Assembly (NCBI GenBank): GCA_023653785.1
Contig: JAMKCH010078985.1
Coordinates: forward strand, 93,327-157,326
DNA: 64,000 nucleotides
Source of the DNA: Ophioderma brevispina
Lineage: Eukaryota; Echinodermata; Ophiuroidea; Amphilepidida; Ophiodermatidae
Direction of reading: 5' to 3'
Shown here: piece after piece, positions 15,152-62,509 of the stretch
How the letters are laid out: every line of letters starts with the position of its first letter
How positions within the stretch are numbered: position 1 is the stretch's first letter
Notes under the pieces: model-generated
Databases searched by the model: none
What the model was told of the DNA's origin: nothing
What the model saw: the letters and a program-made list of their open reading frames with translations, nothing else
Made by a program: the position numbers and the translations under genes

Positions 15152-15186
15152 GGGTATCCATCGCGAAGATGGCGACGGATACCCGA
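15152..15186. repeat. Near-perfect hairpin inside the DIRS-like element
   Basis: GGGTATCCATCGC and GCGACGGATACCC pair with one mismatch around a 9-base loop. Related CATCGCCAA and GCGATGAATATGGC motifs recur between 15190 and 15370. Confidence 0.6.
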
Positions 15187-22309: not shown

Positions 22310-22527
22310 TCCATGGGGTGATATTGATATGGGGTTCAATCCCCGGCCATGCGTAGACTAGGCCTTTGTTGCTATTACAAAACATATTGTGTTCATGGTA
22401 CAACGATACTTTACAGAATCGGCTTACTGGAAACTGCTGCCTTCAGTTCTACAATAGTCTGTTAATTATAGGACTTATGCCATGGTTGGCCGGGATGTCA
22501 AATCCGCTTTGCGCTAATCTCTTAATA
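22310..22527 (+). repeat. Dispersed repeat R1, copy 2, left part
   Basis: Matches 7815-8040 to the word CTCTTAATA, where a TA-flanked element interrupts it. GGGGTTCAATCCCCGG again resembles a pol III B box. Confidence 0.7.
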
Positions 22528-23650
22528 CAGTGTGAGTCAATAAAAACCCTACATTCAGGAAAGATTTTTTCTTCAAAGGTTAAACGTTACTTTTTGCTTC
22601 AATGTTTGCTTTGGTTGTTTACTGAGATAAACAGGCTATAAGAAGATTTTTATTTGGTGTCTTTCGGACTTTGGGTTCAGAAACTATGTCAATTTTGCGG
22701 AGAGACCTAAAAATTCAGTTTGGCCGATTTTAGCCATGCAATGCGGAGAGACTGGCACCGACATATACCATAACACATTATAGCAAAGACAATTCACACA
22801 TGCAATTCAGATGGTATCGATTTTCTTCTCGACAAAAACATCGGTTTGAATAAAATGGTCTATTGTGTAACATAATTATAAGTAAAATATCTTCAAAAAA
22901 TTAAATTACCATTCCTCAATCATAAAGAGTCAGTCGAAAATCACTCCATATCAATGTCTCAGTTCATGAACATAATGAAACTGCTCAGAGATTTTTGTTT
23001 TACATCTCTAAGGTAATTATTTTGCACAAATACAGTATACTCAGGGTCCATAAATTGCAAGAAGAACTAAAGCTGAAGTTTTCTGTAAATAAATCGGAAT
23101 TAAAACTTAAAATTCAATATCGCACTGCTGTTTTTCAAGCGGAATACAAAACTTTTCTATAGGTTCACTCTTGCTCCCAAGTTTCGTTGTAGGTTAAAAC
23201 ACGAAAATCTTGCTGAACCAAAGTAAACTGTGGTCTTACACCAGCTATCTTGAATTTCTTATTTGGGAAATTGAACATTTTTTTACTTAGCATTTTCTTT
23301 TGTAATATCTGGGATATTATTTTATAAACCTTCAATTACTCTCCCACCTTATATTGTTTAACAATAATATGGTGTTAAATGTTTGTACTCAAATCACTGT
23401 TGAAGACCATGTTACTCTATGTAAACGAATGCATCTTTGTTTGGCTCAAAATCGGCCAAACAGGATTTTTACGTCTCTCAGCAAAATAGGCATAACTTCT
23501 TCCTCCAAAGTCCAAATGACACCAAATAAACGTTTTCTGAAAGCCTGTTTATCCCTCTTTATAACCAAAGCAAACATTTGAGCAAAAATAAATCTTAACT
23601 ATTTTAACTATTTTTTATTCTGAATATAGGGTTTTTATTGACTCACACTG
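22528..23650. mobile_element. 1123-bp TA-flanked element with long terminal inverted repeats
   Basis: Begins CAGTGTGAGTCAATAAAAACC after TA (22526-22527) and ends GGTTTTTATTGACTCACACTG before TA (23651-23652). Similarity of the two ends extends with gaps for about 220-240 bp (for example TTTGCTTTGGTTGTTTACTG and AGATAAACAGGCT at the left, their complements at about 23545-23575). It sits exactly inside repeat R1, whose uninterrupted form is at 7815-8200. Tc1/mariner-like, non-autonomous: I see no transposase motif in the remaining 650 bp. Confidence 0.85.
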
Positions 23651-23830
23651 TACAATTAAGGTTGGCCCATTTTTGATGGCCAAATAAAAATTTCTTTGTG
23701 TTATGTGTGCATTGATATAAGAATGCATTAATTTCTCCAATGCTGTGATAAGGAATTATATTTTGTAGTGGCAAAGGTAATTTTTTTGTTCAAATAACAA
23801 CGTTTGATGAAATAATTGCTCAATTGATCA
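23651..23830 (+). repeat. Dispersed repeat R1, copy 2, right part
   Basis: AAGGTTG.GGCCCATTTTTGATGG, TTGTGTTATGTGTGCATTGATATAA and GGCAAAGGTAA continue the alignment to 8041-8180. Confidence 0.65.
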
Positions 23831-24097: not shown

Positions 24098-24100
24098 ATA

Positions 24101-24966
24101 CTACGTGAATAAAAAAAATGTGCAAGGGTTGCAGATGAACTTGACCTTGATAAAATCACTGAATCATAGATTTGTTGTTGTTTTAATAAAGCAAATATAA
24201 GATACTTCCAAATGTTGAAAAAATGAAAGAAAACGATTAAAAAATAAGCAGATATGACTAATTTTGTAAGCACACCTCTTTTTCCTCCATTCCAATGGGA
24301 TTTATACAGTTAAGCAAGATTACGTTAATGTACGATATACGGGGCATAGCATTATGAAAGTAATGATGACCCATGCTATTTTGTTTAAGTGATATGAATA
24401 GTCATGATCTCCTTCATTGATCTTCAAAAAGAATTTAATGTTCACACAAGATCTCACCCAATTAATCTTGATGTGTAAATGAAAAGGGTTTCAATACTAC
24501 TACTACTATTTATAGATACAAGCTATGCCAATAAGGAACTAAAGTCTTTGCAATATCCTAAACAATGGGAAGATCTTGTTTTCTTGCTCTGCAACAGGTG
24601 AATTGGTGTTTGGATTCGTCATATCAGTTGGCACATTGGTATAAATAAATTTATTGATTAATCCGTAGTTGAAATAATAAAAAAAATGTAGCATTAAGTT
24701 CACAAAGGCATCATGATATTGATATTGTATACATTCTCACAAACACAAGTTTAATGTGTGTAAATCCCATAGGAATGGCGAAAAAAGGGGTGTGTTTACA
24801 AAATTGGTCATATCTGGCTTATTTTTTAATCGATTTCTTTCATTTTTTCAACATTTGGAAGTATATTAGATGTGTTTTATAAAAACAACAACAAATCTAT
24901 GATATAGTGATTGCATTAAGGTCAAGATCATCTTTAATCCTTGCACATTTTTTTTGATTCACGTAG
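24101..24966. mobile_element. 866-bp TA-flanked element with about 200-bp terminal inverted repeats
   Basis: Left end CTACGTGAATAAAAAAAATG after TA; right end CATTTTTTTTGATTCACGTAG before TA. The arms (about 24101-24300 and 24765-24966) share CTTGACCTTGATAAAATCACT/complement, ACTTCCAAATGTTGAAAAA, and AAAATAAGC.GATATGAC. The empty site is suggested by repeat R2 copy 2 near 27400. No coding capacity. Confidence 0.8.
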
Positions 24967-25491
24967 TATAGGTAAACTGGTGCCGATCACGTATGAGATT
25001 ATTTAACCGTGTTTTATATTTTATAGTAATCTCAGCAATGTACGATACCATATTGCATTTCTTGCATATTGGTTGCTGGATACCATTCACCTTTGTTTTC
25101 TTCGAACACATGGTGAATTGAATAGAAATGAGGTTCAGCAATAAGTTATAGGGTCTCGGTTTTACACAAGATGTTAGGTCTCAGCTTGCCAAACAACATT
25201 TCATTCATGAATTTTGTTAATCTTCGTTTATTTTCCAATAAATGACGAAATATGGTCAAAGTTCATTGAACTCGCAGTTTATAAGCTCAAGGTTTATTCG
25301 TGAACTAGGAGAGCTCAGTCTAAATCGAGTCTGTGGTAACACCTGTAATCTTTTCAAATGCATGCATGAGTAATAACAATGGCTCTGAAATTTCCAGATG
25401 GAAAAAAGAATCAAGTACTTTATCTTTGCATACCGGATGAATATCATTTTCCTCATTATTTGCTAGTGCCGAGGTAGTGCGATATATATAA

Positions 25492-26302
25492 AACACAAAA
25501 TCAAAAGTAAGTTTCCCCCCAAAAGAACCTACAATAATTTCCAGGATATCCGTTTTTTAAAGATGAAACATAGTAAAGTTTATAGCTATGGTTGTTAGGA
25601 AGCGGTGTTGTGAAAATGAGAGGAATCCCTTACTTCACGGCTGAATGAGCACAAATTAAACACGAAATGAGGCCTTTTGAAAAATTGCAAAGAGTGGTTT
25701 CATGTCCATATTTCACTGTGCTACAACATGTAATGGAATTCAGATTAAAATCCCCGCCAAGGTTGCACCAGCATGTCACTTTTCTTTTGAAATCATTATA
25801 CTCGGTCACCTGGTCAGGTATAAAGTGATGAATGCATCCATTCATGGGATACTGGGAGCATTCATAAGATTATGAATGGTGAAACACATGTCAATACAAA
25901 AGGACCTGTTATCAAAAATGTAGGCCTATACAACCAATAATTCCTGACCACAACACTCACTTGCAATTCACCAACCACAAAGCATAAAGTATAAAGATGG
26001 TAAATTTAAGTCCAAACTGGGATGGCAATAATTAATCATACCCAGGTTATCTGACCAGGATAGGGCAATTGCAATTAGCCTGTTGGAAGCTGGCACGCCT
26101 GTCATCATGATTGACGTTTTTGCAATTTTTAAAAAGGCCTCATTTTTTCTTTAATTTGTGCTCATGCAGCCGTGAAGTAACCGATTCTTCTCATTTTCAC
26201 AACACCGCTTCCTAACAGCTATAGCATCCGTTAAAAAACGGATATCCTGGAAATTATAGTAGGTTCTTTTGGGGGGGGGAACTTACTTTTGATTTTGTGC
26301 TT
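25492..26302. mobile_element. About 810-bp element with about 190-bp terminal inverted repeats
   Basis: The left arm (ACAAAATCAAAAGTAAGTT, ATTTCCAGGATATCCGTTTT, AGGAAGCGGTGTTGTGAAAA, CGGCTG.ATGAGCACAAATTA) has its complement at 26115-26302. Inside there is no protein motif. I cannot identify a target-site duplication, so the superfamily is open (foldback or hAT-like are possible). Confidence 0.75.
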
Positions 26303-33885: not shown

Positions 33886-34457
33886 AATGAGTAAATTAGT
33901 AGGTGTCCCATGGACCTCCTCCCTTGGGCACTAACGGAAGTCAGCTGAGAATATCTTTAAAAATCAAAGAACCATAGCCATTTTTTTTGCTGATATATGT
34001 GCACACATACATGTAAGTAAACAGCTATTAGTAACATAAAAAATAATAAACCCTTTGCAGAAAATAAACAATTTCCATGTGGAAGTTGATAAACCGTTAC
34101 TCTACAAAGGCTACGGCAAAATAACGGGTATTTTGCAACCCCGTAAAAATATAGAGTAAATATGTAGAGTATATATCAACATAAAATAAGTTTTCAAAAA
34201 GTTTGATGTAAGCGCAAGGCTCATTGGATTTTTTCCTCTTTTGCCCAATTATCGCGTGTTTTGAAAACAATATTTCCCCTTATTTGCAGCCCAAATAACA
34301 AATTGCATTTTTATTGCTGATTGGGTTTGTCTTATGACCCTTCACATGTGGTATAAATTTAATTCGTGCGAAGAATTCAGTCGGGAAAGTGGTTTCCTTG
34401 AGGGGGGCATGGACCCCCCTTGTGCACTAACTGGAGTGAAAAACCCTGGTCACTTAA

Positions 34458-35032
34458 AGCGACATAATGGCATAAAAATATTCAGACATAATGAAAAGGA
34501 CCCTTACTGAAATCACTTCCACAAGTTTGAAAACAATTTGGATGTTTACATTCTGTAAAAACAGTAAAAACAGGAAAATTTCCAGAGGGGAAGGTGGCAG
34601 TTCGTGGCAATTTCTGGAACAGAAAACCAAGGTGTTCACATCCCTGACAGAATTTACAGTGTATCTAGCATGTTTTGTTACACAATTCAAAAGCATTCAG
34701 ACCAGGATTCAGGCATTGTACTTTAGGCTTGTAGTAAGATATTGATCTGGCAAGTGAAAGATGGATTAGCTGGGATTAACACATATACAATAGCAATGGT
34801 CTGTGAGCTGATGACAGCATGCTTTTCAAGTTTGGTAAATGCTGGCAGTAATGTCAGCATCATTTTTCCAGATATTGCCACGAACTGGCCCCCCCCCCCC
34901 CCTCTGGAACTTTTCCTGTTTTTACTGTTTTTACAGAATGTAAACATCCAAATTGTTTTCAAACTTGTGGAAGTGATTTCAGTAAGGGTCCTTTTCATTA
35001 TGTCTGAATATTTTTTATGCCATTATGTCGCT
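34458..35032. mobile_element. 575-bp TTAA-flanked element with about 155-bp terminal inverted repeats
   Basis: TTAA at 34454-34457 then AGCGACATAATGGCATAAAA; the right end TTTTATGCCATTATGTCGCT is followed by TTAA at 35033-35036. The arms include complementary AGGACCCTTACTGAAATCAC and GTAAAAACAGTAAAAACAGG blocks. A C run at about 34890-34901 lies in the right arm where the left has AGAGGGGAAGG. Mirror-image open frames on both strands are products of the inverted repeats. Confidence 0.85.
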
Positions 35033-35853
35033 TTAAGTGTTAAATCCTTAATCTGAAGGCCATTTAAACATTAGTTCGAAATTTCCTAACTCTATTTACA
35101 GTGTATTATCATTTATATGATCCACAGTATAATTTCACACACCAGTGTTGGTCGTGGCAATTATAAATTGGAATTCTTTTCGTTCATCTTATGGGGCATT
35201 TGAAAGGCCATCATTTAAATCGGTGGGGGTCCATGCCCCAATTTAATCCCGACTGGTTATGTCAACGCCTAAATTCAACTCAAATATTAAAAACGAATGT
35301 AAATTCTATAAAAGAAAACTACTGAATCAGAATAAATCGGATTAATGAGGACTGGCATGTTTATTACCAAGCAACTTGTGGAATTTGGCCTTCCTGTTGT
35401 GATACATTACCCACTATAAAGTTTCTGGCAAACTTTAAAAGTCTATATACAATCAAGCGTATGAATTGAACTTCTTAGAATCTTTTCAAAAAATACTTGG
35501 GATTATATATTATTATTTTTTGCGAATTTTGTTCTTCACCCTTAAATTTTCGAAGCCTAATTGTAAATAAAGAACGCTCAATTAACAGCTTTAAACGTTT
35601 GCAGTTGCCAACTTTCATGGTACAAAACGTTTCAAATTTACAATTTGTTGAGCCAATTTGTTGAAAATAAAATTTAAATAAAGAACAAAAATACATAAAT
35701 TATAGGATATCAAGAACCTCAAATTATTTTGAACATATACGAACACATTTTTATTAGAAGTCGAACAACCTCTTTCATTTTCCGGGGGGGGGATCATTCA
35801 TGAAGAATCACGTTCTTATTAAAAACACAAACATTTAGACTTGCTTTAAATGT

Positions 35854-36653: not shown

Positions 36654-39600
36654 ATCAAGTAGGGCCTTTCAAATCTGATCCTAAACATGGACATTGCTCA
36701 TGTAAAATTATGGCCCCATTTCACAGAAACGTCTTTAAAAACCCTTATCACTGATAGACCCAAAATGTTGCGATAGGCTATATGTGAGATCTAATGTGGT
36801 CGTGGTAGGTTAAACATGCTGGTATTATAAAGTTTCTTCCAATTTCTGAGGCAACTTACCCGCAATTTCTTTATGAAATGGGAGAACTGATTTGGTATTA
36901 GGGATTACAGAAAAATGTGTTACCTTAATTTTGTGGTAATTTTGCATGGTTTTATTACCATCTTCGCAGTGTGAAAATCTACCCTTTCCAGCGTTTTTCT
37001 GCTCCCGCGATGACAACATGTTTTGGTAGAGTCCACTTCCACCCACCGGATTCAACCTGGATTTTTCCTGATTTCTAATCAATAGCGCACTGCAAACCCC
37101 GGCTGGGAGCACTTGTATTCCAAGACGGGTATCATGCTCATGTACAAAAACGCGTATTTTAGGGTCGTTTTTGAAGATCAGGCGATGTACGCACGTACAT
37201 TGTTTAGTTTAGGGTATCAAAATCATCGAGAATACAAAATTAGGGTATGATTTTCACCTTGTAGATTGCGTGTTAAGGTTGTGATGTTTTGAAAATTTCT
37301 TCACATAAAAATGCTGGAATAACAAATTAATGGATTTTCCTCCGTATTTTCCCCTGAATAACTATCAGTCAGGACGAGGCCTTTATGATATTTAGTAACA
37401 GCTCTTTTTCCACACACTAAACTATTCACGTGTATGGATTGGCACTGTTACCCACTAACAATGAAATGGAATACATAAAAAAAGTCATTGAAACCTTATG
37501 TGAATAATTCATTTAATAGGGCAGGATACAATATTATGTACAGGGTATGGTTAAATGCAGTACATAATCATCCTCGTTTATAGGTTAGCAAATTCATGTC
37601 AAAATACTGGTTTATGGTGCATTTCTAAACAGTCACACAAAATGTTTAGGGTAGCAAAATCAAACCAAAATACTTGTATTTTTCTTGCCAAGTGCAAATG
37701 CGCGTTTAGGGTGCATTTTAGGAGACCATATGTGAACATGATATCCATTTTGGAATACAATTTCCCCGGCTGCGAACGCATTTTATGATTCATTTTATCG
37801 GCAGGTATTACAGAATTACAGTAGCCTGATTGGTATGCATTACGGTTTCGATTCTGATCAAACTTACGTAATGTAACTTACGTGGTGGTCAACGTAGTAC
37901 TTTACGTGATCACAGCTATGCACTTACAATTCAATCTTGCCTGTACCATACGTGGGCAGATTTTCATAATCGAAGTACATCAAGAAAACGCACTCATAAT
38001 GCATAGTAACCTAAAGGCGTCGTAGAGATACGTACAACATTTGAACACATTAAGCTTTGTTTATTTGTTTTAGTATCGACAATATTGTTTTGTAGCATTT
38101 GTCATTTATGGAATTATTAGCAAATTGTATATATAGGTATCACTATTGGCGCGCAATTTGATAATTTTGAACGTAATGCGAATGGTGGTCATAAACCGTT
38201 TGGCAATCATCATTCAATGAATCTGGGGCGTGTCTACTCTCTTCTTTCTCGTTGCGCTTTTCAAACCTGCCTTTTTGTACTCTGCAGTGGTAGATCACAC
38301 CTACGTAACAAATCTTGAACAGACAATAAGTTTTGCAAGAAGCAGACGTATTGGAAACTTTTACACAATAATTTGCCAAATATGACATACTGATTATAAT
38401 CTGAAGTAATTTCAAAATAACTTCTGCACAACTATACACTTCAGTTCAGTTTGTTGAAAATTGAGCAATAATATAGATTGCAATTAAAAAAATGAAATCT
38501 GGTAAATGTGTCATCCCACTCATGAAGTGTTCGATGACTTAAAGCATATTACACATTTTTTTGAAGGTCGCCCCCAATTTTTCAAAATTTGAGATTTTTA
38601 CCGGTTGCATTGGAACTGGCTAGTAAACTATTAACCTGGAATGGTTAAAGCTCGAAAATGTCTATGCGTTACAAACGAAGGAATTTTGTCTGAAGAATTA
38701 TTATCGGGGATTCCCCGATTAATTCAACGGCTGCTGGACCGGCCTTCCAATGTGAATAGCCGGGAGAATAGTGCCATGTACGTGTCTAGGCCCATCCATT
38801 AGTTGTTGTAAAAATAGTTCGGGCAAGTCAATTAGAGGTTATTTTCTCGAGGTGGCACTATTGTATCTGGACGGACATAAACGTAGCATCCAGCTCTGGC
38901 CGTTAAGAGTCCGCAATCTGGGATCCCAATTCTAATTACAAAATCGCTGATTTCTTTGGGATAATACGCAGTTTTTTAGCATTCTCGTTCGCAGGTATAG
39001 GTTCCTAGACAAATTAATCAACGTAACCTGTGCAAAAATATCAAATTTTGAAATTGGGGCGCTCTTCAAAAATGTTGCCAATATTGCTTTAACAACACGT
39101 ATAAATAATTGAAGTATCTACTTTTCGAATATGTAAGTATCTCTACGATCGTTTATAGGTTACTATGCATATGTAAGAATATTTTCGTGATGCACTTTGT
39201 TTATGCATCTGCCCGCATACATTGGGGAAGTTAAGCTTGTAATGTACATAGCTGTGCACCACCGATTACGTAAGTTTGATCAGACTCGAAATAAGCATAC
39301 CAATCACGGCTACTGTAATAATACTTGCAGCCGGGGAGGGGGTTGTATTCCAAGGTGGATATCATGCTCACGTATGGCCTCATAAAATGCATCCTAAACG
39401 CGTATTTGCAATTTGCTTTAGGCAAGAAAACCACCCTAAAAAAGTGTTCATTTTCCAAGGTGAAAATCATGCCCTAATTTTGTATTCTCGATGATATTGT
39501 TACCCTAAATAATGTACGCGCGTACATATATAGCCTGATCTCCCAAAACGCCTAATTACGCGCTTTTTGTACACGAGCATGAAGTTGGAATACATGTGGC

Positions 39601-43810: not shown

Positions 43811-44079
43811 CGTCTCCACCATGCTGTTCGTTATACAAAAACAACGCTCCTTGACGTTTTTAACTCATGAGAGAAAACGCGCGTGTCGCAGCGTTTTTTG
43901 TGTCTGATGGAACCCAACTCATTGAAGCATATCACGCTGCCTATGTCATTTTCCAAGTGGTCGTATTAGTGGGTGAGCCCGATCATCCAAAATTTTGATG
44001 GGGAAAAGTGCTGATTACCAGGTGTTCCTAACTATGACTTACACCAAATCATGATAGCTATTCTGAAAGGTTAGCTAGA

Positions 44080-44623
44080 AGCATATTGGCACATTTTTTG
44101 AAGACGCCCCCAACTTCAAATTTATATATTTTTTTGCAGAGTTATGTTGGTAATTGTCTATACGAAACTATACCTGCAAACGAAATGCTAAAGAATGCTT
44201 GTTTATTTATTGCATAAAATAGCGATTTTTGTATTTAAAAGTGGGATCCCAGATTGGACTTAACGGCGGAGCTTGAATGCTACGTTTATGTCCGTCTATG
44301 ATGAAATAGTGCACCTCAAGAAATAACATCACACACAGGACTTGCCGGAACTATTAAAACACCAATGGATGACGTATAATATTTACATGGTGCTATTTCC
44401 GGCTATTTCACATTGGAATGCTGTTTCCAGCAGCCTTTTAATTAGTATATTAACTAGTCTTAATTACAAAATTCCCTTCGTTTTGTGTGACACCTAGACA
44501 TGTTTCGAGCTTAACCATTCACATGTATAGTTACTAGCCGTTAGCCAACGCGAACCATCTCAAAATTTGTTTTTTTTGGAAAAAAAAAATTGAGGGCGCT
44601 CTTCAAAAAATGTGCTATATTGC
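44080..44623 (+). mobile_element. TTAA-associated element, AGCAATATTGGCA family, copy 2
   Basis: AGCATATTGGCACATTTTTTGAAGA at the left, TCTTCAAAAAATGTGCTATATTGCT then TTAA at the right. The internal block GTTTATGTCCGTCTATGATGA through GGCTATTTCACATTGGAA is shared with copies at 38543-39088 (inverse) and 46450-46834. Confidence 0.75.
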
Positions 44624-45221
44624 TTAAAGCTAGTTAGGTCACGAAAGTTATACATGTCACAACCTAAAAAATGCTAATATTTTGTAGGCAAATATACAAG
44701 AATTCCAAAAAATGTAAGTTTGAAATGTTTTTGACCTATGGGGATTAGGAAATAATATATAAACCTAATAAATTGCCAAGGTGAAATTTAACCTCTATAG
44801 CTAGAGGTCATTCCTTTTAAGTGTAATTTGTTTGTGCAATGTTAGTACTTAGTTTTACTATTTTGAAATAACAAAATAGCTGAAATGGCATATATGGACC
44901 TACCACGCACTGGTTTTAGTTTTTGTTTACACAACACCCATTTAGACAGCCATCTTACGTTTTTGTGTACTCTATTGGGCCTTCCATGGGGAGCCCCACA
45001 ATCAACAAATAGTTTGGCTGGTCACGCTCTCAGATTTGCTAAATCACTTCTATCATGCCTCTATGGATATTTTGAGGCCCATACCTGATTTTGAGTTCAA
45101 TCTAACTTGTGTGACTCCTCACCCAATTAACATGTTAATCCTCATCTACTTAGGAAGATATTATATAGAAGCTCGGAGACACTGGCGAGCAAAGAATTAA
45201 CATAAATACGAAAAATACACG

Positions 45222-46449: not shown

Positions 46450-46834
46450 ACGGCCGGGCTGAACATTCTATTCAGTTTATGTCCGTCCATAATGATATAG
46501 TGCCACCTCAAAGAAAGTGACATCGTACTTGACTTGCCTGAACCACTAAAAAACTAATGGATGAGCGTAAGACACGTACATGGCACTTATTTTCCCGGCT
46601 ATTTCATTTTGGAAGGCCGTGACAGCTATTGAATTATAATCAGAGATCTCCGATATTAATTATTCTAATTACAAATTCCCTTCGTTTAGACACATAGACA
46701 TTTTCAAATATTTTCAAGCTTTACCATTCACGATATAGTTTACTAGCCATTACCAATGCAAACGAACGTGCAAAAATCCATTTTTTTTTTAGAAATTGTG
46801 GCGCTTTTAAAAAAAAAAATGTTGCATTATTGCT
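46450..46834 (+). mobile_element. TTAA-associated element, AGCAATATTGGCA family, copy 3, left end lost
   Basis: From AACGGCCGGGCTGAAC through TTATGTCCGTCCATAATGATATAGTGCCACCTCAAAGAAA to the right end ATGTTGCATTATTGCT, collinear with copy 2. The left terminal repeat is not present. Confidence 0.65.
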
Positions 46835-49689: not shown

Positions 49690-50070
49690 CAGATGCACTT
49701 AAAGAGACATGAGGAAATTTCCAGAAAAAGTGGCCCCAATTTTTTTCGAACCCGTTTTTTTTTGCATACTAGTATTTGGAATAAAGTATTAGATCACACC
49801 TGGAGTGAATAAGCCGAATACGTCGTATTTATGTAATAAGATGATGATTTAGTATTTTGTGTCGTGCACGACAGAAAATCATAGCACGATTTACTGTAGG
49901 GACAATTACGATAACGGGTAAGTTCAAACAATGTTTGCGGTTTTGTTTTGTACTTGTTTGTCCAATACACCTTCAAAACGTTCTCGGTAGGTGGTCTACG
50001 ACCGATCAAGTACAATTTATGAGAAATTCGTATTCTCAAAAAATCTCTTCCTGCCACTATAATGGGAATG
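49690..50070 (+). repeat. Dispersed repeat R3, copy 2 (uninterrupted)
   Basis: Aligns with 12400-12680 and then 15869-15965 without the DIRS-like insertion, giving the empty-site form of the repeat. It holds a GTCGTGCACGAC palindrome and a GGTAGGTGGTCTACGACCGAT near-palindrome. Confidence 0.75.
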
Positions 50071-51185: not shown

Positions 51186-51249
51186 AACCACTGGAATGCT
51201 TTTCCGGTATTCACACACTCACTTACTCACTCGAACATTGCGATAAAAA

Positions 51250-51745
51250 GGGTGTCTCGAAACATCAGACCTCGAAACAACAGACCTCAGACCTCGAAAC
51301 ATCAGACCTCGAAACATCAGACCCGGAAGTAAATTCACTTCCGGGTCTGATGTTTCGAGGTCTGATGTTTCGAGACACCGGGGGATGTCTCGAAACAACA
51401 GACCTCAGACCCGGAAGTGATCTTTTTGCCGAAGTCAAGATTTTACTTCCGGGTCTGATGTTTCGAGGTCTGATGTTTCGAGACATCCCCCGGGTGTCTC
51501 GAAACATCAGACCTCAGACCTCGAAACAGACCGGGAAGTAATTTCACTTCCGGGTCCGAGGTCTCTTGTTTCGAGGTCTGATGTTTCGAGACATCCCCCC
51601 GGGTGTCTTGAAACATCAGACCTCGAAACATCAGACCCGGAAGTAAAATCTTGACTTCGATGTCAAAAATGTTTCCCCGAATTCAGCATTTTACTTCTGG
51701 GTCTGATTTTTGAAATTCAAGTAGACCCTCATCGTGCCATGACAC
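51250..51745 (+). repeat. Nested palindromic array, left arm (CCGGAAGT / CTCGAAACATCAGAC)
   Basis: Alternates CTCGAAACATCAGAC and GTCTGATGTTTCGAG modules around two kinds of palindromic centre: CCGGAAGT-spacer-ACTTCCGG and GAGACA-(C/G run)-TGTCTC. At least five centres are visible. The last 130 bases (about 51609-51735) are the exact or near-exact complement of 52413-52545. Ser/Thr/Glu-rich frames over it are artefacts. Confidence 0.9.
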
Positions 51746-52411
51746 GGAGGAGTTTGCCCTGGTTTTCTGCCGCTAAATTGAGGGGGCCGACCAGTCGAAA
51801 GAGAAAGGGACGATATGGCCGGCGGGGTGCGGGAGGAGGTGTCCTCCCTTTGCGGGCCAAACCTTTGCAACGTTCGCTTACTAAGACACATTTTCCCATG
51901 CATGCAAATTTAATAGAAACAATTTGAAGTGGTAAACTTCATAATTCATGACCAACCGTTTTACAAAACGGTGTGGGTGCGGGAGGTATGTAAGTTTGGA
52001 GTATTTAGTTTTCAAGACATGTTTTCTATGAATAGTAGATAAGTAGATAGACCCGATTTAAAATTGCAAGTTGATTAATAATAAACTTAACTGATGCTAA
52101 TGTTAAATTTTTAAAATGGGGACTTTTGGAACTACCTTTATCTGAAATGCGGGCTTGTGGAACTGGAGTTTGAGTAAAATGATATGCTTGTTGAGCGGCT
52201 AGCAAGTAGTGAAATGGGTGTATTTAGCAACGCACGTCCATTTGGTCCAAGTCCAGGGCAATCTCCCCTTGTCACGGTTGGAAGAATAGCAGGATTTGTT
52301 TCTATCTACTTTTTTTCATTTTTTTTAACTTACAAAACTTCTCAAACAGACGGGTAACTAGTCAACAATTCCAGGGTCAGTCTCCCCATGTTTGAGAGAG
52401 AGAGAGAGACG

Positions 52412-52727
52412 ACACGGTGAGGGTCTACTTGAATTTCAAAAATCAGACCCAGAAGTAAAATGCTGACTTCGGGGAAACATTTTTGACATCGAAGTCAAGA
52501 TTTTACTTCCGGGTTTGATGTTTCGAGGTCTGAGGTCTGATGTTTCGAGACACTCGGGGGGATGTCTCGAAACATCAGACCTCGAAACAACAGACCTCAG
52601 ACCCGGAAGTGAAATTACTTCCGGGTCTGATGTTTCGAGGTCTGAGGTCTGATGTTTCGAGGTCTGATGTTTCGAGACACCCGGGGGATGTCTCGAAACA
52701 TCAGACCTCGAAACATCAGACCCGGTG
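52412..52727 (-). repeat. Nested palindromic array, right arm
   Basis: Begins with the complement of the left inner arm, then repeats GTCTGATGTTTCGAG, CCGGAAGT-GAAATT-ACTTCCGG and GAGACA centres, ending at CAGACCCGG. Confidence 0.9.
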
Positions 52728-52735
52728 TGGCAGGA

Positions 52736-53430
52736 GATATAGCCCCCTGTAGCCATAGTCCGGAGACACTAAGTTCTGGTTTTAATAGTCCGGGGGATGT
52801 GCAAAGCTAGGAACTATAGTCCCCCGGACTATGATTTAAGGAATGTTAGTCCTACAAGTGGGAATGAAAGTCCGAAAAGGACTATCAGGCCTTAGGAATA
52901 AATATCCAAGTCCGACATGGACTACCAGTCCTTAGGATTTAGTGTCCATTTCCGAAAGTAGGGACTATTAGTCTCTAGGGATTAATGACCTGTCAGGGGT
53001 GGACTATCGCTCCTTAGGGATTAGGGTCCAATTCCGACCTGGACTTTAGACCTTAGGAATTATTGTCCATGTCTGAAGGTAGACAGACTATTAATCCTTA
53101 GGAATTAATTTCCTGCCAGAGTGGACTGCAGCTCCTTAGGGATCGGTGTCCGATTCCGACGTGGACTATAAGTCCTTGGGGATTATTGTGCAAGTTTGTA
53201 TTTGGGCGGACTCTCATTTCTTAGGAATTAATGCCCTGTCAGAGGTGGACTATATTTCCTTAGGGATTAGCGTCCATGTCTTGCGTGGACTTACAATTCT
53301 AAGATAAGTAGGTCCAGTCAAAGGTGGAATATCGATCCCTGGAATGATGTCCAAGCCGACGGGGACGGACTACCAGGGCTTAGGAATATTGTCAATGTCC
53401 TAGGTACACTCGTTCCTAAGGAATTGTGTC
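52736..53430 (+). repeat. GGACTAT/CCTTAGG tandem array, about 40-bp units in 120-bp triplets
   Basis: Thirteen or so units of 36-46 bases share TCCTTAGG(G/A)ATTA, a TGTCC segment and (G)TGGACTAT. Three subtypes alternate: one with TGAAGGTAG..ACTATTA, one with CCTGTCAGAGGTGGACTAT, one with TTCCGACGTGGACTATAAG. That gives a higher-order period of about 120 bp over at least three cycles. The first 100 bases (52755-52835) hold AGTCCGGGGGA and its complement TCCCCCGGACT as a hairpin. Confidence 0.85.
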
Positions 53431-53609
53431 CAAGTCCGAAGAATGGTAAAGAATTCTATTGAGAAATGATCCTACTTTAATAAAAACTAACATGCATAGA
53501 ATTGGGTAGCCCTAACATCATAACGCCGAGTACAAACATATGAATGACACATAGCATAAAATTGATAGGTTTTTGGTTTATCTATTTCTTTCCATGAAAT
53601 TCCCCTATG

Positions 53610-53835
53610 GTAAAATTGGGACATAAATTGGGTGTTTCCATAAGGGACCCCTTTCTGACATACTTTTCTGACACCCATATGAATTCGGAAACCTACGGAC
53701 CTAACGGAATAAAACACAGGTTATGTGGTTATTCCGTTAAGGGTCCGAATTCATAATCAAGGGTGTATCAGAAAAGTATGTCAGAAAAGCTTTTGTGTCA
53801 CCTTATGCAACACCCATTAAATTTTCTCAAATACA
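53610..53835. mobile_element. Hairpin element, about 100-bp arms
   Basis: GGGTGTTTCCATAAGG, TTCTGACATACTTTTCTGA, ATATGAATTCGG and CCTAACGGAATAA on the left are complemented by TTATTCCGTTAAGG, CCGAATTCATAAT, TCAGAAAAGTATGTCAGAA and CCTTATGCAACACCC on the right. The central loop is under 20 bases. Confidence 0.8.
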
Positions 53836-53904
53836 CTTGGTGACCTAAAAGCTTGAATTACATATTTTTCAGTGGCGGAGATTCCTTCATGATTTCATTT
53901 TCAG

Positions 53905-54005
53905 GAGAGTTTTCATCCATTCGTGAATTAGAGCATACCCCGAAACAATTGAAAGAACGCAAGAAATCTCCACCCACTGGTGCTCATAATGACGCAGCAC
54001 TCTGA
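53905..54005 (+). CDS. Candidate terminal exon on the plus strand (gene 2)
   Basis: Follows a good acceptor (gatttcattttcag, AG at 53903-53904). In phase 1 it reads EFSSIRELEHTPKQLKERKK then SPPTGAHNDAAL and stops at TGA (54003-54005). The charged, Lys/Glu-rich composition is protein-like and unlike the flanking DNA. Phase matches the exon ending at 33282; the exon ending at 48682 is in another phase. Gene identity unknown; it may be an alternative terminus or a separate gene. Confidence 0.45.
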
Positions 54006-54009
54006 GTGG

Positions 54010-55660
54010 AGAGTGCGTAATTAGTCCCGCCTAACCATTATGACCCAAGATCCCCTTTGAACCTTCATGTTGTGAAGGAAGTTTCAAAGCTCGATCCACT
54101 CCTTCCAATTTTCTTTAAAAATCATTTGATGTATAGACCCTAGCTGACATTTTACATTTCGGAGTGTGCCCTTGCTCAATAATCATTGTGTACACAGCAT
54201 ATGGGTTAGAGTGGACAAATAATATATAGTAGAGTATTTTGTTTGCAATAAGTCAAATTTACCCCCTGAATAACCTTTGACCTCAAACTGTTGCGGTTAC
54301 ATATGTGCGTCAGCTAGATCCAAATAAGTCAACTGTAAAAATAATTTGGAAATATTCTAATGAATATATTAATAATAATACTTACCGTTAGAATGACACG
54401 TAGGGGAAATTTGAAAATTAGTCATTAGGTAAATGAATAAATTCATAATCCTTTACTAGTCTAGTGGATTATTTTAATTTGCATTAATTAAAATTCATAT
54501 CATTGACGGAATCAAGGCAAACAAAGGATAACGGTAAGGGAAAACGAAATTCCCCTAACCCCCACATAGTATTACTTATACTACTACATATATACTACTA
54601 CATACACTATATTACGACATACTAATACTGTTATATTACCTCAACTTTTGAGTAAAAAAAATATTTATTTTCTCCAATTAAATTTGAGAAAAGTTCTCAC
54701 GAGAAAAGTTATTTGTGTATGATAAGAGGAGAGCAGGGTCCCCTAGAGGTTTTGATATAAGGTGCACTGTTAGATAGATGCCAATAGAGGAAGTGGGGAT
54801 TCCCCAAGATGTAAACTTAGAAAAAAGAATTAACTTGTTTATGCTTTGGATCAAAAAACATTGCAAAATATGGGGATCCCCCCATGGAGTTATAATATGT
54901 GAAGTGCGTGTAATCAGATGATGTAATATGTGAAATGCGAAATGGTCAGCTAGTTTCAAGGTTTATGTTTATGGATATGGTGTGGTAATATCTATTTTAA
55001 GACTTGGGAACTTTACGAAATGATGTTATAAAGCTGAGTTACAAGAGGTTAGATTGGCCAGATCTTAGTAACAAGTAGCTAGAAGTTTATAGCTAGTTAT
55101 AATCTGCAATGAGTAGCAGACCTGTAAAGTACCATGTGCCAGGATTATAATTCCATGTGAGTCGACCTCGCTGTAATTAATTCTACTGTCGTCTTTTGAA
55201 GCCAAAGTGCTGGGAATCAAAAAGGATTTCCAAATTGTGGACAGATAGAAATCGCGGTGATTATCTTGGACTGATTACTATGTAATATTAGTGTTCTTGG
55301 AAATGATGGACAAAATTACTTTCAGGACTGAGACGATTCCATTGGAATAGAGTACTGAAGCTTTTATGTGAACTTTGCATACGTCATTTTGGAGTGTTTT
55401 GCGGTGGAGGACATATCAACGTTGAAATGCACGGCTCTTTTCGTTTGAGACATAAATCTGAGTAAGATTAGAATTGTTAAGTGTTAATTGTGATTGTATA
55501 GATAATGTGTTTGGGAAATAACAAATAGTGATCCATCTGATTAAAATCATTTTAAATTGTTTTGTTATATAAAATTCAGATTTATTGTGCACAAAAGGCT
55601 CGTTTATTTGTGTTTGAAAAGGTATTTCTGACCTTAGAAGTCCCACGAGACATCAAACAA
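54010..55660. other. Intergenic or intronic sequence, nothing recognised
   Basis: AT-rich without convincing exons. A short run of TACTACTACAT units lies at 54570-54635. Confidence 0.4.
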
Positions 55661-55669
55661 TACATACTT

Positions 55670-55865
55670 ACTAACATGCTACTACTACATACTACTACAC
55701 TCCCGGCTATACTACTACTAACTACTACAATAAAACTGCTACTACAGAATACTACTCACTACTACTACAGAATGCTACTACTACATATACTACTACTCCG
55801 GCTACTACATACTACAATACTACTTACAACTACTACTACATTCTACTAATACATATACACTGGAG
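55670..55865 (+). repeat. ACT/TAC trinucleotide microsatellite
   Basis: About 190 bases of imperfect (TAC)n; the overlapping Leu/Thr-rich frame is an artefact. Confidence 0.95.
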
Positions 55866-56257
55866 CTAGCAGACATTATAACACATCTCAAGTAAAATGG
55901 TTGAGTGATTAAATAGTTGACAGCCTACGGAAAACCCCTGAAAACGCGATTCTACGTGTGCACTGGCAAATGAGCTTTACGGATGAGGGGCCAAGACAAA
56001 GTTTGTACAGGGGTCAAACATTTTTAAATTGACCCAATCCATGTTGAAAAGGGTGTAACCCACATCTGTGTCTAACATAGGATTTAGAAAAGGTATCGTT
56101 TGTACTATCTACAGCCTAAAAGTTTCAGTTTTATAAGCTAAAAACTGCAAAAATCAATAAAGGTAAATTTCAGTGTACAGGGGTCAAAGTTGGAAGGTGA
56201 GGGAAAACGTCTTAATGAGTGCATAACATAGCCAATTTCATAACCTGCTACACAGGC

Positions 56258-56365
56258 TAATATAATAATAACAATAATAATAATAAACTATGCTTATTAA
56301 TAATAATAATAATTTAATAATACTAATTAAAAAAATAAAAACTAATCATAAATTAATCATAAATT
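56258..56365 (+). repeat. AAT trinucleotide microsatellite
   Basis: Imperfect (TAA)n with interruptions, then ATCATAAATTA duplicated. Confidence 0.9.
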
Positions 56366-57284
56366 TGCTCTTATTGGTTTTAGCATATAACATATAGGAT
56401 AGTGCCAATATATCTCACGATGAACAGGTATGTTACGGCCACATAGAGTCGATGACTTCAGAGAGATGCTTAAAATTGATAAAAACATCCCCATGTTCAG
56501 AAATTCCAGAGTATAATAAGAAAATGCTAAATTGGCCACACTAACTGTTTAATTTTGTTATGTCCTTTTTAATTTGTGGATTGTGATTGATGATTTATAT
56601 ATTGGAATTAATTAAATAATACACATTTACTTAAAAGTAATTGTTTTGTTTGTTAGGGAAAAAGGCTTTTCTCGATCGTTTGTTTTCACAATTTTGGATT
56701 TTTTAAAAAAGGAATTTGGTCAAAAATTATAGAAGCCTTGCATGTGTGGATACGTTTTAGGGTTTAATGAAGTATTGTGGAAGCAATTGCATAAAATGTT
56801 AAAACATTAGGTCGAGAAAGCGGACTTATGGTAGGCCTTTTCGGGAATAGGACTACATCTATGTCTCTTCTCCAAAAACATCAAATCTTAAATCTGTATT
56901 TACCTGAATTCCTGAAATGTTGAAGGAAAATTAATTTACTAGTAGCTGTACTGCTACTACAACTAGTATGAAAGATAGTAACACAAAATAATCAATAATA
57001 AAATTGAGGACCAGAATAAAGATTTATAGAAAGCCATTATAAACATGACAAACGTAAAACATTAATGACCAGAGCTGCAAAATATAGGTTGTTTTACCAT
57101 TTACACTTAAGATTAGGGTGTTCATTATAACACCTTGAGTGTACACGTGTGTTCTACCACCATAGTTAATGGCATTCAGAGACAAACGTTAAACTCAATA
57201 CATCCAAAAAATATGTAAAGTACATCGGTCGTCGGGACCGCTTGTGTGCCTGCCGGTCGCGTTAGTGAATTGATAGGCCTAACA

Positions 57285-57720
57285 CGGACTTTGACCTTGA
57301 TGTGTCCCTTGACCTTGATATGTGACCCTTTGACGGCATAACAAACGGGGTTGCATGTAAATCCATAAAAAAAAGTGTGATTCCAATTGCTCGTTCAACT
57401 TTTCAAATGAGGGCCGATTTTACATTATTCAGCCTATATTTTACAACTTGACCTCACATGATTTTGACCTTGATATGTGATCTTGATATGTGACCATAAA
57501 CAAATGAGGGTTGCATGCCAATCCATAAACCAAGTTTGATTACATTGGAACTTCAACTTTTAAACTGAGGTCAATTTTACATAGTTTCCGCTATTTTACA
57601 CTTGACCTGTCACAGGATCTTGACTTGGTATGTGACCCTTTGACCGCAATCCACAAATGGAGGGGATGCCAGTTGCACCTGTGACCCACGTTTGGTTTAA
57701 ATCCATCAAAGTATGTGATA
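57285..57720 (+). repeat. TGACCTTGATATGTGACC tandem repeat, about 155-175-bp units
   Basis: TTGACCTTGATATGTGA.C begins units near 57290, 57462 and 57617. Each continues with AAA.GGGGTTGCATG, AATCCATAAA, GAACTTCAACTTTT.AA.TGAGG, TTTTACAT..TT and CTATTTTACA.CTTGACCT. About 2.5 copies. Confidence 0.75.
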
Positions 57721-57724
57721 TTAA

Positions 57725-59190
57725 AGCCAAAATGTTAAACCTTTTTCAGAACAGACATCAAACAACATACTCAACTATAACAAAACAGGACATCAAACAA
57801 CAACAGTGGACAAAGTGATCCCTATGTGTCTCCTGCCCTAGGGCCGCGACCACAAAAATGGTAATTGGCCAGTTCAACATTTATTATATTTATATTTTTA
57901 TTTAAGAATTTATGTGATTATTTAATTTAAAATAGATGCAAAAAAAAAAAAAAACTGAAAAACAGATTTTTTTAGGATCGAGATGTTTCCCAAATAAACC
58001 ATAAATTGGCGTAATTTCTTGATTGATTCTAATTGCAGTTATGTAGAAAAGAAATATGACAAGACAGTCTTCATTATCCACTACGGAACTATCCAACTTA
58101 ATTGCCGCACAGGAATGTCCGTGTAAAAAGTGCAATAATATTTTCTTCTCAACTGACAATACTTACTTTGCAGTGTCTTGCAAGGAAAGATCGTGAAACG
58201 GTTCCCGAAAAGTGATCGTTCTAATTACCAAATAATAGTAATTGAAATTGCAATTTCACCAAACTGCACAATGAGAAACCAGTGCGCCGCTCAATATCAT
58301 ACTAAATCGATAGAATGCTTCCTTTAAAACAGTGTAGGGTAGCAGTTTCGTATACTGTTCACATAAACGTATGATTTAATTATAGGCTACCACATTTATG
58401 GCGGCATCTAACAATAGGCCGTATATATTTTATTTTTACAACTAAATATCCAATTTCCAATTCCAATTTATTTATTTCAGAAAAACATGACATCAAAATG
58501 ACATCAAAACACAACAAAAACAAAAAAAACAACACTGGAGGAGTGGCAGGAAACCCATTTAGCCTGTGGAAGATTAAACCTACCTTAAAAATACAAAGAA
58601 ATTAAATTTTTTATAAACATTGAGTTTTAGAAAGTGTTGAAAAAGAAGATATAAAGATGAATCCCAGAAATTGGGAGGAAATCCACATAATGTGTGTGAA
58701 AATCCTCAAGAGGATTCCTATGCATGATCAGGTTCCGTGTTTGTTACCGTCCTCTTACCACAAAAATGATTATTTATGTACATTTGAAATTTACCTTAAA
58801 TAGCCATATAAAATGTCGGCAAACTTTACCAGTACAATAACCGTTGAGTGTTTAAAGCTGACTTTTTAAGGCCATACTATTAGATAGATTGAAGGGGAAT
58901 TATATATTTCTAATAATTATTTTGCTACTTAAAATTAGGGTTAGTTGTACGTGGGTATTCATCAATTACTATGACGTGGTTTATGTTGTAGAGATATTGA
59001 AAAATTTGTAAAGTAATGCAACATTCCATTAAGTTCCAAATTGATAAAAAGAATCACAATTGTGCTTTTTCATCTAATTAACTATAACCACACTCACTGG
59101 GTTCATTGTAATCATGTTTTGAATTCATATGCGAATGCTCGAGCATGTGCGTTTCCTTTATGTCATTCTTTTTTCTATTTGGTGATGTAT
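57725..59190. other. Mostly featureless; one weak minus-strand exon candidate
   Basis: AT-rich. On the minus strand 58220-58167 lies between an acceptor (tttggtaattag) and a donor (gtaagt), but all three frames are open over 54 nt, so frame and reality are unsupported. Nothing else is recognised. Confidence 0.3.
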
Positions 59191-59410
59191 TAATTGCATG
59201 GGTCTTGTGTTGTGTCTTTGCATGTGTGGTGTGTGCGTGTGGGTGGGTGTATGTGAATGTGGCTGTGAGTATGTGTATATGTGGGTTGCAGTGTGTGTGT
59301 GTGTGTGAGTGTGGTGTTCGTTGGTGTGTGTGTGTGCGTGTGTGGGAGTGTGCATGTGTGGGTGCAATGTGTGTGTTGGGTGTGCGCACTCGTGCGGGAT
59401 GTGGGTGTGG
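59190..59410 (+). repeat. GT-rich microsatellite
   Basis: Imperfect (GT)n for about 200 bases with the usual Cys/Val and His/Thr frames as artefacts. Confidence 0.95.
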
Positions 59411-60229
59411 TTCACTTACTTAAAGACTCAATCTTACAAAAATCACAGTTTATGTACAAACCTCTCACAAAACAACCAAAATAGCACACCAGCTTGACTT
59501 TGGTGAGATTCAATGGCTGTTAGGGTTAAGTAAATTCATGCACATGCGTGACTTGATGAAATGTACTTAGGAGGGGAATGAGGTTTACGATCGTAGCACG
59601 AAACTGAAATTTAAAAAAAAAACGTCTTATTATTACCCTGAAAATGTGGTCTTAAGGGCAATGAAAGTGGTCTAATATTGTTCGGTGGACAATCATAACT
59701 AGGGCTAGTTGATCCGCCAAAAAATACCTCAATTCCGCAAACACTAAATTGAAACCTTGGGCAATTTAAACCAAGGTATTTGGAAAAAAACTTATTGCTG
59801 GCCTCCGATGTGCTTTTGCTTGAGTTGAGATTGGAAGAACATTGTAGCATATTATGAGGCAGGAAGGGGGGGGGCTGGGTGTGGGGAAGCGTATGTAGAC
59901 AAAAGAAAGAAAACACAAGTGAAGCAGAATACTTGAAAATGTTGTCATGAATCGTTTGTGTTTTAGTATTACCAGTATAGGGCCCAGATTGAATTCGACA
60001 TCACCGCATGTTAAAGGTCCATGGCACTATCGCTATAGCCTAGTTCCCAGAAGCCCCAGATTCTACCGGAAGTGGTCAACATTTTGGTAATCAGAAGAAA
60101 GCTACTATTTTTCTTCATTACCTGTGAAAATCTTCTAGAGCCAAAGGATGTTTGGTTGTGGAAGTTTGAGCGGAAATATCCGGACCTTTGGTCTCGACCC
60201 AAATATTAATTTTTACCGTCGGCCTACTC

Positions 60230-60670
60230 ATGGGGCACTTTTATAAAATCAACACACCCCGTTTTAGCTTCGCCCATCACAAACGGATTGAAATATCGAG
60301 GCGCGAACTTTACGATGGGGTTTTTGTAGTGAAGGCCGTCTATCAAGATGATAAACTTTAGTATCCTCAAATGGGGGCCATCCCCCTTGAACGAGACTGA
60401 AATGAAGCCGACCAGTGGGATAATAATCAATGGTGTTCAAAAACCCCAAAAACAATATTGTACGCTGCCATGGACTCGTTTACGAAATAGTACCTCGTCA
60501 TTTGGGGGGGGGGCTACAGAAATTAGACCTATAAATACAGTGAGTAACATGAAGGTTGCTCTACGTACTTCCATAATGCTATCATTGCATGTTTTTGATA
60601 CGCAACACAACAAGCGTAAGCAATTCACCACATCGGTCACGGAAACAAACAGAGATCATAGATCATAAGG
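60230..60670. other. Region of low stop density on both strands, unassigned
   Basis: Frames of 63-106 codons overlap on both strands (plus frame 60348-60668; minus frames from 60430 and 60455). Base composition is more balanced than in the flanks. I cannot choose a strand or frame, and a G run at 60506-60515 disturbs the reading. It may be an old element fragment. Confidence 0.25.
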
Positions 60671-60676
60671 CGTGTG

Positions 60677-60724
60677 TCATCGATAGATTTGGGCGAGATC
60701 CAGGTTTTCTAGACTCTCTGCTCC
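60677..60724 (-). CDS. Weak candidate terminal exon, minus strand
   Basis: After acceptor tgctgtacgcattcag on the minus strand (AG at 60725-60726), phase 0 reads GAESLENLDLAQIYR and TGA. Short but with a good acceptor and protein-like sequence. Confidence 0.25.
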   Translation of the reverse strand, partial: GAESLENLDLAQIYR

Positions 60725-61035
60725 CTGAATGCGTACAGCAAAATACACGATTTCGAAACAAATAAGACTACACTTGAATATATGTGTCTTGCTCATTCCT
60801 AATAAGTCATGAATAATAAATAATTATGAATATAATTAATAAATAGGAAAAAGCTATTAATGTAATAAATAAACAGTTTAAACCCATAACTATGTGAATG
60901 AAAGTAGCAAATAAAAACTGATTAAATCAATTTGTTGGTTAAATGAATTTTCAGTGACTACTTTGCTGCTGTTAATTGTAAAAAAAATATTTTCGTAGCT
61001 ACGTGTCAAAGGTCATTTTCCAATCTGATCTCTAA

Positions 61036-61057
61036 GCTGGCCTCTCTGGAGGCCAGC
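61036..61057. repeat. Perfect hairpin GCTGGCCTC-TCTG-GAGGCCAGC
   Basis: Nine-base-pair perfect stem with a four-base loop, a strong local structure with no T run to suggest a terminator. Confidence 0.7.
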
Positions 61058-61082
61058 AAAAACAAATTAAAATAAAAACATA

Positions 61083-61156
61083 CTCTACTTGGACTCTAAC
61101 CTGGTTCATTCACATCGTAAGTCAGAGAGACCTTACCGCTAGACCACGAAGGCGGT
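61083..61156 (-). repeat. tRNA-like sequence, probable SINE head or tRNA pseudogene
   Basis: The minus strand has TGGTCTAGCGGTAAG, a good pol III A box as in valine-type tRNAs, and 40-odd bases later GGTTAGAGTCCAAG, a B box with one mismatch. Acceptor arms do not pair well, so a functional tRNA is unlikely. Confidence 0.45.
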
Positions 61157-61269
61157 TGACGACAGCTTCTGTTTTTTTATACCATTTATCACACTCTTAT
61201 TAACATCTGTATTCATTCATACCTATTGTGTCATACCGTGATATACAGGACTACAGTAGCGGAGGACAA

Positions 61270-61640
61270 TGGTTACTTTTACTGGTGTAAAAGGAACTAT
61301 AGTCCGATAGAGACTATAGTCCGGTTAAACTATATAAAAACCTAGAAACTAATATTGATGTAAGGACTACTATTTCTACAGAGAGGGGTCCACGCAGTGA
61401 AGACTATTGACCCTGGAAGCCATGGTCCGGGGTATAAAAACTAGCAACATTAAAGCAAGGACTGTTATTCCTAGGAACAGGGGTCCACAGGGTAAAGACC
61501 ACTGACCCTAGAAGCCATGATCGGAGACCGCTCGGTTCTGTAGTCCGGTTAGGGTATTGTTCCTAGGGGACAGGGGTCCGAAGGACCCTGTCCCTAGGAA
61601 CCAACAATCCCCCCGGGCTATATCTACAGGGGGACTATAT
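61270..61640 (+). repeat. GGACTATAGTCC-type array, second locus
   Basis: ACTATAGTCCG repeats, then GGACT.TT.TTCCTA and GGGGTCCAC.G..AAGAC.A.TGACCCT.GAAGCCATG in two copies (about 61380-61425 and 61480-61520). It ends in a large hairpin at 61555-61605 (CCTAGGGGACAGGGGTCC / GGACCCTGTCCCTAGG). Confidence 0.75.
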
Positions 61641-61644
61641 ATTC

Positions 61645-61860
61645 CTTTCAGACCCGGAAGTAAATGTTGACTTCGGCAAAAAAATCACTTCCGGGTCTGA
61701 GGTCTGTTGTTCGAGGTCTGTTGTGCGAGACCCTCCCCCGGGTGTCTCGAAACATTCAGACCTCGAAACATCAGACCGCGAAGTGAAGTACTTCCGGGTC
61801 TGATGTTCGAGGTCTGAGGTAGGTTGGGTTCGAGGTTCTGATTGTTTCGAGACACCCCGA
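61645..61860 (+). repeat. Nested palindromic array, second locus
   Basis: CAGACCCGGAAGT, ACTTCCGGGTCTGA, GTCTGTTGTTCGAGG, GGTGTCTCGAAACATTCAGACCTCG and GAGACACCCCGAG repeat the module order of the 51-52-kb locus with more mutations. Confidence 0.85.
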
Positions 61861-62509
61861 GTAAAAAAAATTCTACTGGTTATAAATCCTGCATGAGACA
61901 GTCAATGGCTCTGCCTTTAACCATCTCCATGCCGATGAAACCGCATGAATTTGTATTGGTATGTTTTTATTGGGTTCAAGGTGGTTTTCAAATATAATGC
62001 TTGCTATATTGCAGAAGTATTACTGTCTTCACAGATTTGATAGGAAAGGAATTTACAAAAGGCGAATAGTGTTGGTTATTTATCGGCGTAAAACACCCAC
62101 TCTTTTGATCCTTTGGATGACTTTGGGGTTTTCAAAGCCTTTAATTTTAGAGATTACATTACCGTTCATAATCCTCCAACCTGTTTTACTTTGATTTCAC
62201 TTCGATTTCACTTCTTTAAAAAGTCATAGAGCTCGGCGCTAGTAGCTAGTAGGACTAGCTCGAATAATTTACTTCGTCTAAAGAGTACATCTTCACTTTG
62301 AAAAAAAAAGAAACACAAACAAGCAAAGAAGAACAAACAAACAAAAAAAAACCAACCCAACAAAAAACATAACAACTGTAAAATAAGGATATACGTTTTC
62401 TTGTTGTATTAAGAACACCCTCTTAAACCGCCATTTGTACGAAACTTGTACAATATTATTTAACAATCTTCAGATCTAAGGGGAAACGAAAGTAAGTAAT
62501 TGGGAAAAA

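Follow-up and report, generated by a model that had tools for sequence, protein, structure and literature searches.

Palindromic arm modules in two pieces 9 kb apart: a foldback element probably interrupted by a second mobile segment

The TU elements of sea urchin have an outer arm domain that consists of 15-bp tandem repeats. Arms of short repeated words are also found in Tm1, a member of the Mutator/Foldback family in root-knot nematodes, which according to the sections of PMC3169594 drawn on here has composite arms in which 13-15-bp tandem words are repeated a varying number of times, the two arms of an element being of different length; its duplications are of 9 bp, and some of its members are without a transposase. 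Tetris, from Drosophila virilis, is described in the excerpted text of PMC4079207 as foldback-like and apparently non-autonomous, with no apparent coding capacity and with 8-10-bp duplications, and a sea-urchin foldback is mentioned there alongside it. From the same excerpt comes the description of Galileo, of the P superfamily, which has foldback-like arms whose internal repeats carry additional transposase-binding sites (via PMC4079207). Finally, Foldback4 of D. melanogaster has modular palindromic ends, mostly of more than 400 bp, around a variable interior (PMC2955051, in the part that describes the element).

The window, by which we mean the whole 64-kb stretch of DNA that was analysed, contains a locus that can be set beside these systems. 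It probably represents two nested mobile segments, a non-autonomous foldback DNA transposon of 1.68 kb (element A), later split by the insertion of a second segment (segment B). Element A is a known kind of mobile element and an unusually readable case of it, rather than a new kind. It would work like Tm1, Tetris and Foldback4, a likeness that is drawn from their descriptions and not from sequence comparison. The parts of element A are as follows.

51250-61857: element A, 1676 bp once the insert and one duplication copy are subtracted
51241..51249, + strand: candidate target-site duplication of element A, left copy CGATAAAAA
51250..51736, + strand: complete left arm, 487 bp, comprising modules M1, M2, M3 and the left half of M4
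51737..52412, no strand: interior, 676 bp
52413..52725, - strand: right arm, inner part, comprising the right half of M4, M5 and half of M6
61658..61857, - strand: right arm, displaced outer part, comprising the remainder of the M2 and M1 equivalents and ending in GAGACACCC
61858..61867, + strand: candidate target-site duplication of element A, right copy CGAGTAAAAA

The two arms, of 487 and 513 nt, flank an interior of 676 bp. They are inverted, have internal subrepeats and make up most of the element, and it is long inverted arms of this construction, forming the majority of an element, that characterise the foldback class. The outer terminus of the left arm is GGGTGTCTCGAAACA. The longest inverted arms are 51613-51736 and 52413-52536, these being 124 nt long, 97% complementary and separated by 676 nt. 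The earlier note on this DNA had described facing palindromic arrays about 670 bp apart, each with two kinds of centre; the arrays are present where it placed them, and the two types of centre, which alternate in the arm modules, are CCGGAAGT..ACTTCCGG and GACACCC/GGGGGATGTC. Each half-module follows the same grammar, running from TGTCTCGAAACA through 15-bp words (TCGAAACATCAGACC or near variants) and 7-bp words (TCAGACC) to CCGGAAGT. Taking each half-arm from TGTCT to GAAGT, there are ten complete ones at 51.25-52.7 kb, with lengths of 78, 41, 33, 41, 45, 48, 41, 48, 48 and 63 nt, and two, of 42 and 65 nt, at the second locus described below; an eleventh half-arm, at 52689, is truncated by the insert.

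The modules have hairpin potential. Eight pieces were folded as single-stranded DNA, with 200 shuffles of each. The four modules at the main locus gave z values from -11.0 to -14.9 and the two pieces from the second locus gave -9.2 and -3.4 (the latter for 61648-61738), with 0 of 200 shuffles as good for any of these six. For two pieces from the array region, z was -2.7 and -2.9, a level that 1 of 200 shuffles reached. The idea that the modules are separate tandem insertions was dropped on inspection, since the junction between neighbours is a centre of the same GACACCC/GGGGGATGTC type, with no duplicated bases seen there. A half-module profile run across the 64-kb window finds no copy beyond the two loci at E < 1, and no further copy of the interior of A is seen within the window, where element A is present as one copy, split.

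The 15-bp word of A recalls the 15-bp repeats of the TU elements, the likeness being one of description rather than of compared sequence. With Tm1, as presented in the sections of PMC3169594 drawn on, A shares composite arms of short words, unequal arm lengths, 9-bp duplications (candidate ones, in A) and members without a transposase. However, Tm1 has tandem words with asymmetric 7-bp end motifs, whereas in A the words make up palindrome chains whose centres alternate between two kinds, a difference that is likewise taken from description (PMC3169594, same sections). The short non-inverted outermost bases of Tm1, reported in the same sections, show a likeness to the ends of segment B (PMC3169594). 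Tetris resembles A in its long arms with internal tandem repeats, its apparently non-autonomous nature, the absence of apparent coding and its 8-10-bp duplications (a candidate one, in A), but its repeats are of about 220 bp, its arms are of up to 1735 bp, and the excerpted text of PMC4079207 makes no mention of palindrome chains. Foldback4 has modular palindromic ends around an interior, as does A, with modules that differ from those of A as far as the description in that part of PMC2955051 goes. The binding sites in the internal repeats of Galileo have the role that we propose below for the arm words of A (via PMC4079207, same excerpt).

The right arm of A is in two pieces. At a second locus, 61246-61858, which is absent from the earlier note, both sequence types are found again (the palindromes and the GGACTAT array), in mirror order. 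In the left arm, 51449-51736 is the colinear counterpart of the piece at 52413-52725, and 51250-51458 that of the piece at 61648-61857, such that the two pieces tile the left arm once and overlap by exactly the 10 bp (51449-51458) of the duplication. Removal of 52726-61657 leaves a right arm of 513 nt that can be aligned over its full length to the 487-nt left arm, with 455 of 470 paired bases identical and 15 substitutions under one scoring, and 453 of 470 identical and 17 substitutions under two others. Of four arrangements compared under one scoring, the colinear one has the highest value, 752, compared to 507 for the swapped order, 578 with the displaced part flipped, and 507 for the inner part alone. 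The best placement of the displaced piece is on M1-M2 (51250-51458), with a score of 237, the nine other placements scoring at most 167, and the 26-nt spacer of M2 is common to it (40 of 52, compared to 11-22 for five other modules). The inner part differs from the left arm by 8 substitutions in 288 paired bases and by gaps of 15, 7 and 3. The colinearity of the pieces, together with the 10-bp overlap, therefore points to two nested things, A and B. The features of segment B are these.

52726..61647, no strand: segment B, the insert, 8922 bp (8.9 kb)
52716..52725, + strand: 10-bp duplication TCAGACCCGG, left copy, target site of insert B
61648..61657, + strand: 10-bp duplication TCAGACCCGG, right copy
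52737..52763, + strand: inverted terminal motif of B, left copy (ATATAG-CCCCCTGTAG..ATAGTCCGG)
61613..61640, - strand: inverted terminal motif of B, right copy
52840..53446, + strand: GGACTAT array at the left end of B, monomers of about 40 bp in triplets of about 120 bp
61246..61612, - strand: array at the right end of B, diverged GGACTAT/TCCTAGGAAC repeats with a period of about 100 bp (limits by eye)

The inverted terminal motif extends over 28 columns with a score of 34, which was reached by 0 of 5000 dinucleotide shuffles, the same-strand score being 10. Among random 60-mers from the window, 0 of 5000 reached this score when the two places of the motif itself were excluded (maximum 24), and 11 of 5000 when they were included. 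Beyond the terminal motif, the arrays have no alignment above shuffles (inverted 18, same strand 19, maximum of 300 shuffles 20), and the outermost 5-7 bp of B are non-inverted. Both copies of the motif contain ATAGTCC, the reverse complement of GGACTAT. There are 13 GGACTAT/ATAGTCC sites in the window, 12 of them within the ends of B, with their orientation mirrored: on reading inward from each end, one direction is shared by the outermost three on the left and the outermost one on the right, and the inner six and two have the opposite one. The left-end array is the 40-bp/120-bp array that had been noted immediately after the palindromes, and its three-monomer higher order is borne out by a lag-3 mean identity of 0.661, a value reached by 32 of 10000 permutations in a test on 15 monomers with cuts placed by hand. 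In the right-end array, 61333-61427 and 61433-61522 are 74.7% identical.

The duplication flanking B, TCAGACCCGG, is exact and 10 bp long, and so falls within the 8-10 bp of a target-site duplication. When breakpoints were placed at random inside the arms (20000 trials), a duplication of at least 10 bp resulted in 0.8% and one of at least 7 bp in 1.7%. For element A, the flanks CGATAAAAA and CGAGTAAAAA give a 9-bp match with one 1-nt gap, and 6 of 4000 random pairs are as good, or 8 of 4000 pairs in a control using left flanks that end in AAAA. Ungapped, the outer flanks match at 7/9 with a score of 3, which is reached by 35% of 3000 random pairs and is not significant. Since the scoring that allows a gap was adopted only after the ungapped test gave no signal, the flank duplication of A is supporting evidence and not proof. 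With lengths of 9-10 bp, the duplications are in keeping with the Mutator/Foldback class, this superfamily being only a candidate.

A history that would account for these features can be proposed. Element A probably moved by cut-and-paste, using a transposase supplied in trans, and made a duplication of about 9 bp on insertion. The repeated arm words probably served as spare transposase-binding sites, and slippage or unequal exchange probably added and removed them, for the most part 15 or 7 bp at a time. How the arms of a foldback may grow can be read clearly from those of A, with their palindrome chains and their 15- and 7-bp words. Later, segment B, which has GGACTAT-array ends and the inverted terminal motif, would have entered by transposition beside a CCGGAAGT centre in the right arm of A, duplicating the 10 bp and leaving the arm split as it is seen. 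B is younger than A, the arms of which differ by only about 3-5%, and hence the ends of B would already have been different before insertion. The terminal motif may be a transposase site that was kept while the rest of the ends diverged, and its conservation amid diverged ends is as expected if this is its function.

The manner in which B entered could have been different. The arm modules are strong palindromes, and B could have been captured as DNA during the repair of a break at a cruciform extruded in the arm of A, instead of being transposed. It would suit such a capture that the ends of B match only in the terminal motif, and that no transposase was found in 22 of its 28 open reading frames. 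However, inverted motifs and repeat arrays at both ends of B, together with an exact 10-bp target duplication, are marks of transposition, and we therefore regard capture during repair as unlikely.

The earlier note, in which only the left end of B was included, described a composite foldback. The foldback part of this description is supported by the subrepeat arms, the interior in which no coding was found and the candidate duplications, but the composite part is not supported, the array being the left end of B. Extended to the second locus, the same idea would make 51250-61858 a single 10.6-kb foldback belonging to one composite family, with inverted ends made up of palindromes, terminal motif and GGACTAT array. 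This order is present at both loci, mirrored, and the outer flanks have a possible duplication. However, each end of such an element would need its own complete palindromic part, whereas the palindromes beside the right-end array are the piece that is absent from the right arm at 52.7 kb, with a 10-bp overlap, and the palindromic left arm is fully partnered only after both right pieces are joined. As the palindromes at 61.65 kb supply the outer part that the right arm lacks, a single composite element was rejected as the main reading, and we consider it improbable. It can be seen that a nested insertion can mimic a new composite element, and that arm-to-arm colinearity resolves the nesting without a genome search.

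If A was split by B, as we propose, the insertion amounts to a natural experiment, in which one part of a foldback arm has remained beside its partner and another part has been moved 9 kb away. Such a split arm can be used to ask whether inverted arms evolve in concert via hairpins. Inter-arm substitutions number 8 in 288 (2.8%) for the part in place and 7 or 9 in 182 (3.8-4.9%, depending on the scoring) for the displaced part, with no difference between the two (Fisher p 0.59 and 0.31). Judged by these substitutions, the two parts look about equally old, as expected for parts of one arm. In contrast, single-base gaps are found at 10 places in 182 pairs of the displaced part (61658-61857) and at 0 in 288 pairs of the part in place (p 6e-5), the numbers being 9 and 0 when two other scorings are used. 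Longer gaps, of 4 to 13, are present in the displaced part as well. The extra indels of the displaced part could come from poor sequence polish or from the loss of arm-to-arm correction, either one. If the excess of gaps is biological, it may be that hairpin-mediated conversion keeps arms that face each other across a short interior in register, and that separation stops the conversion; we hold this to be improbable, and the equal substitution levels speak against it.

The many single-base indels at the second locus could also be those of an older copy, in which case the two loci would be independent copies of one repetitive family that by chance lie 9 kb apart in mirrored orientation. A scan for duplications around the first locus alone found as its best ATAAAAA (7/7, near 53479, over 220 positions), which is at the 95th percentile of a background of 100 scans of 150 positions and speaks for independent copies, while the best score for the second locus alone was 5, with a background median of 4. 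None of the ungapped tests, whether of the outer ends or of each locus alone, is proof of a duplication. For the copies to be independent, coincidence would have to account for where the displaced piece aligns, for an overlap of exactly 10 bp, for the common spacer, for the similar substitution levels and for the flank match, and this makes the explanation very improbable. An assembly artefact, for example from inverted chimeric reads, would suit a displaced part that is rich in single-base indels, like poorly polished long-read sequence, but substitutions and longer indels distinguish the two arms, the interior has no mirror-image counterpart and the pieces fit together with a duplicated stretch, so that this hardly deserves credence.

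For segment B, open reading frames were taken from stop to stop, with at least 60 aa and a start between 53.3 and 61.4 kb. Of these 28 frames, 22 were compared to Pfam and gave no match at curated cut-offs and no transposase, the remaining six being in or beside microsatellites. No coding was found in the interior of A, where one overlapping frame had no match in Pfam. A MULE transposase (Mutator superfamily) was found neither in the 22 of 28 frames of B nor in the one frame overlapping the interior of A, and no THAP-type protein was found among the frames checked against Pfam. Overall, 40 frames were searched in this way, giving five matches below the cut-off in four frames (best E 0.0095, 16.6 bits against a cut-off of 27), which were taken as chance. 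The longest stop-to-stop frame in the window is 184 aa, and the window has many microsatellites. With these features and its several segments bounded by long inverted repeats, the window has a eukaryotic look, although it yielded no marker gene. Protein searches gave no match; for the window, Rfam gave 0 matches at the gathering score and ARAGORN gave 0 genes.

Words of 16-17 nt from the family were matched at 4 loci in viral contigs and 38 in genome contigs, with one match each. These 42 outside loci have at most 3 family words per 500 bp, compared to 13-28 in the four densest bins of the window, and they are therefore taken as chance. The 28-base centre pattern and the 21-base array pattern had 0 hits in viral contigs, and the interior of A had no match in plasmids. 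In the paper library searched, six motif strings gave matches in two papers, a single string in each, and both papers are by their listing on other subjects.

Two smaller features were observed in segment B. At 53652-53787 there is an imperfect palindrome, 73% identical over 151 columns when aligned with itself, with ends that resemble TTTCTGACATACTTTTCTGA; it may be a small MITE nested in B. On the minus strand, 61070-61165 has by eye a likeness to the head of a tRNA-derived SINE, and ARAGORN identifies no tRNA there.

It can be added that the window contains several other repeats. A GC-richer segment of 3.55 kb, 12404-15956, has inverted stretches near its ends (12732-12906 and 15682-15854, 82%). 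The 358 bp at 49699-50056 match only the two outer ends of this segment (76% and 81%), and look like a deletion derivative of it. There are also short segments with long inverted ends, namely 34451-35039, 24098-24969, 25491-26302 and 22526-23652, with arm identities of 94%, 89%, 82% and 78% respectively, and with several such segments in the window the genome seems to be rich in elements of this kind. Finally, 38538-39089 and 44079-44629 form an inverted pair of about 550 bp, 73% identical and separated by 5 kb, to which a third piece, 46475-46795, is related.
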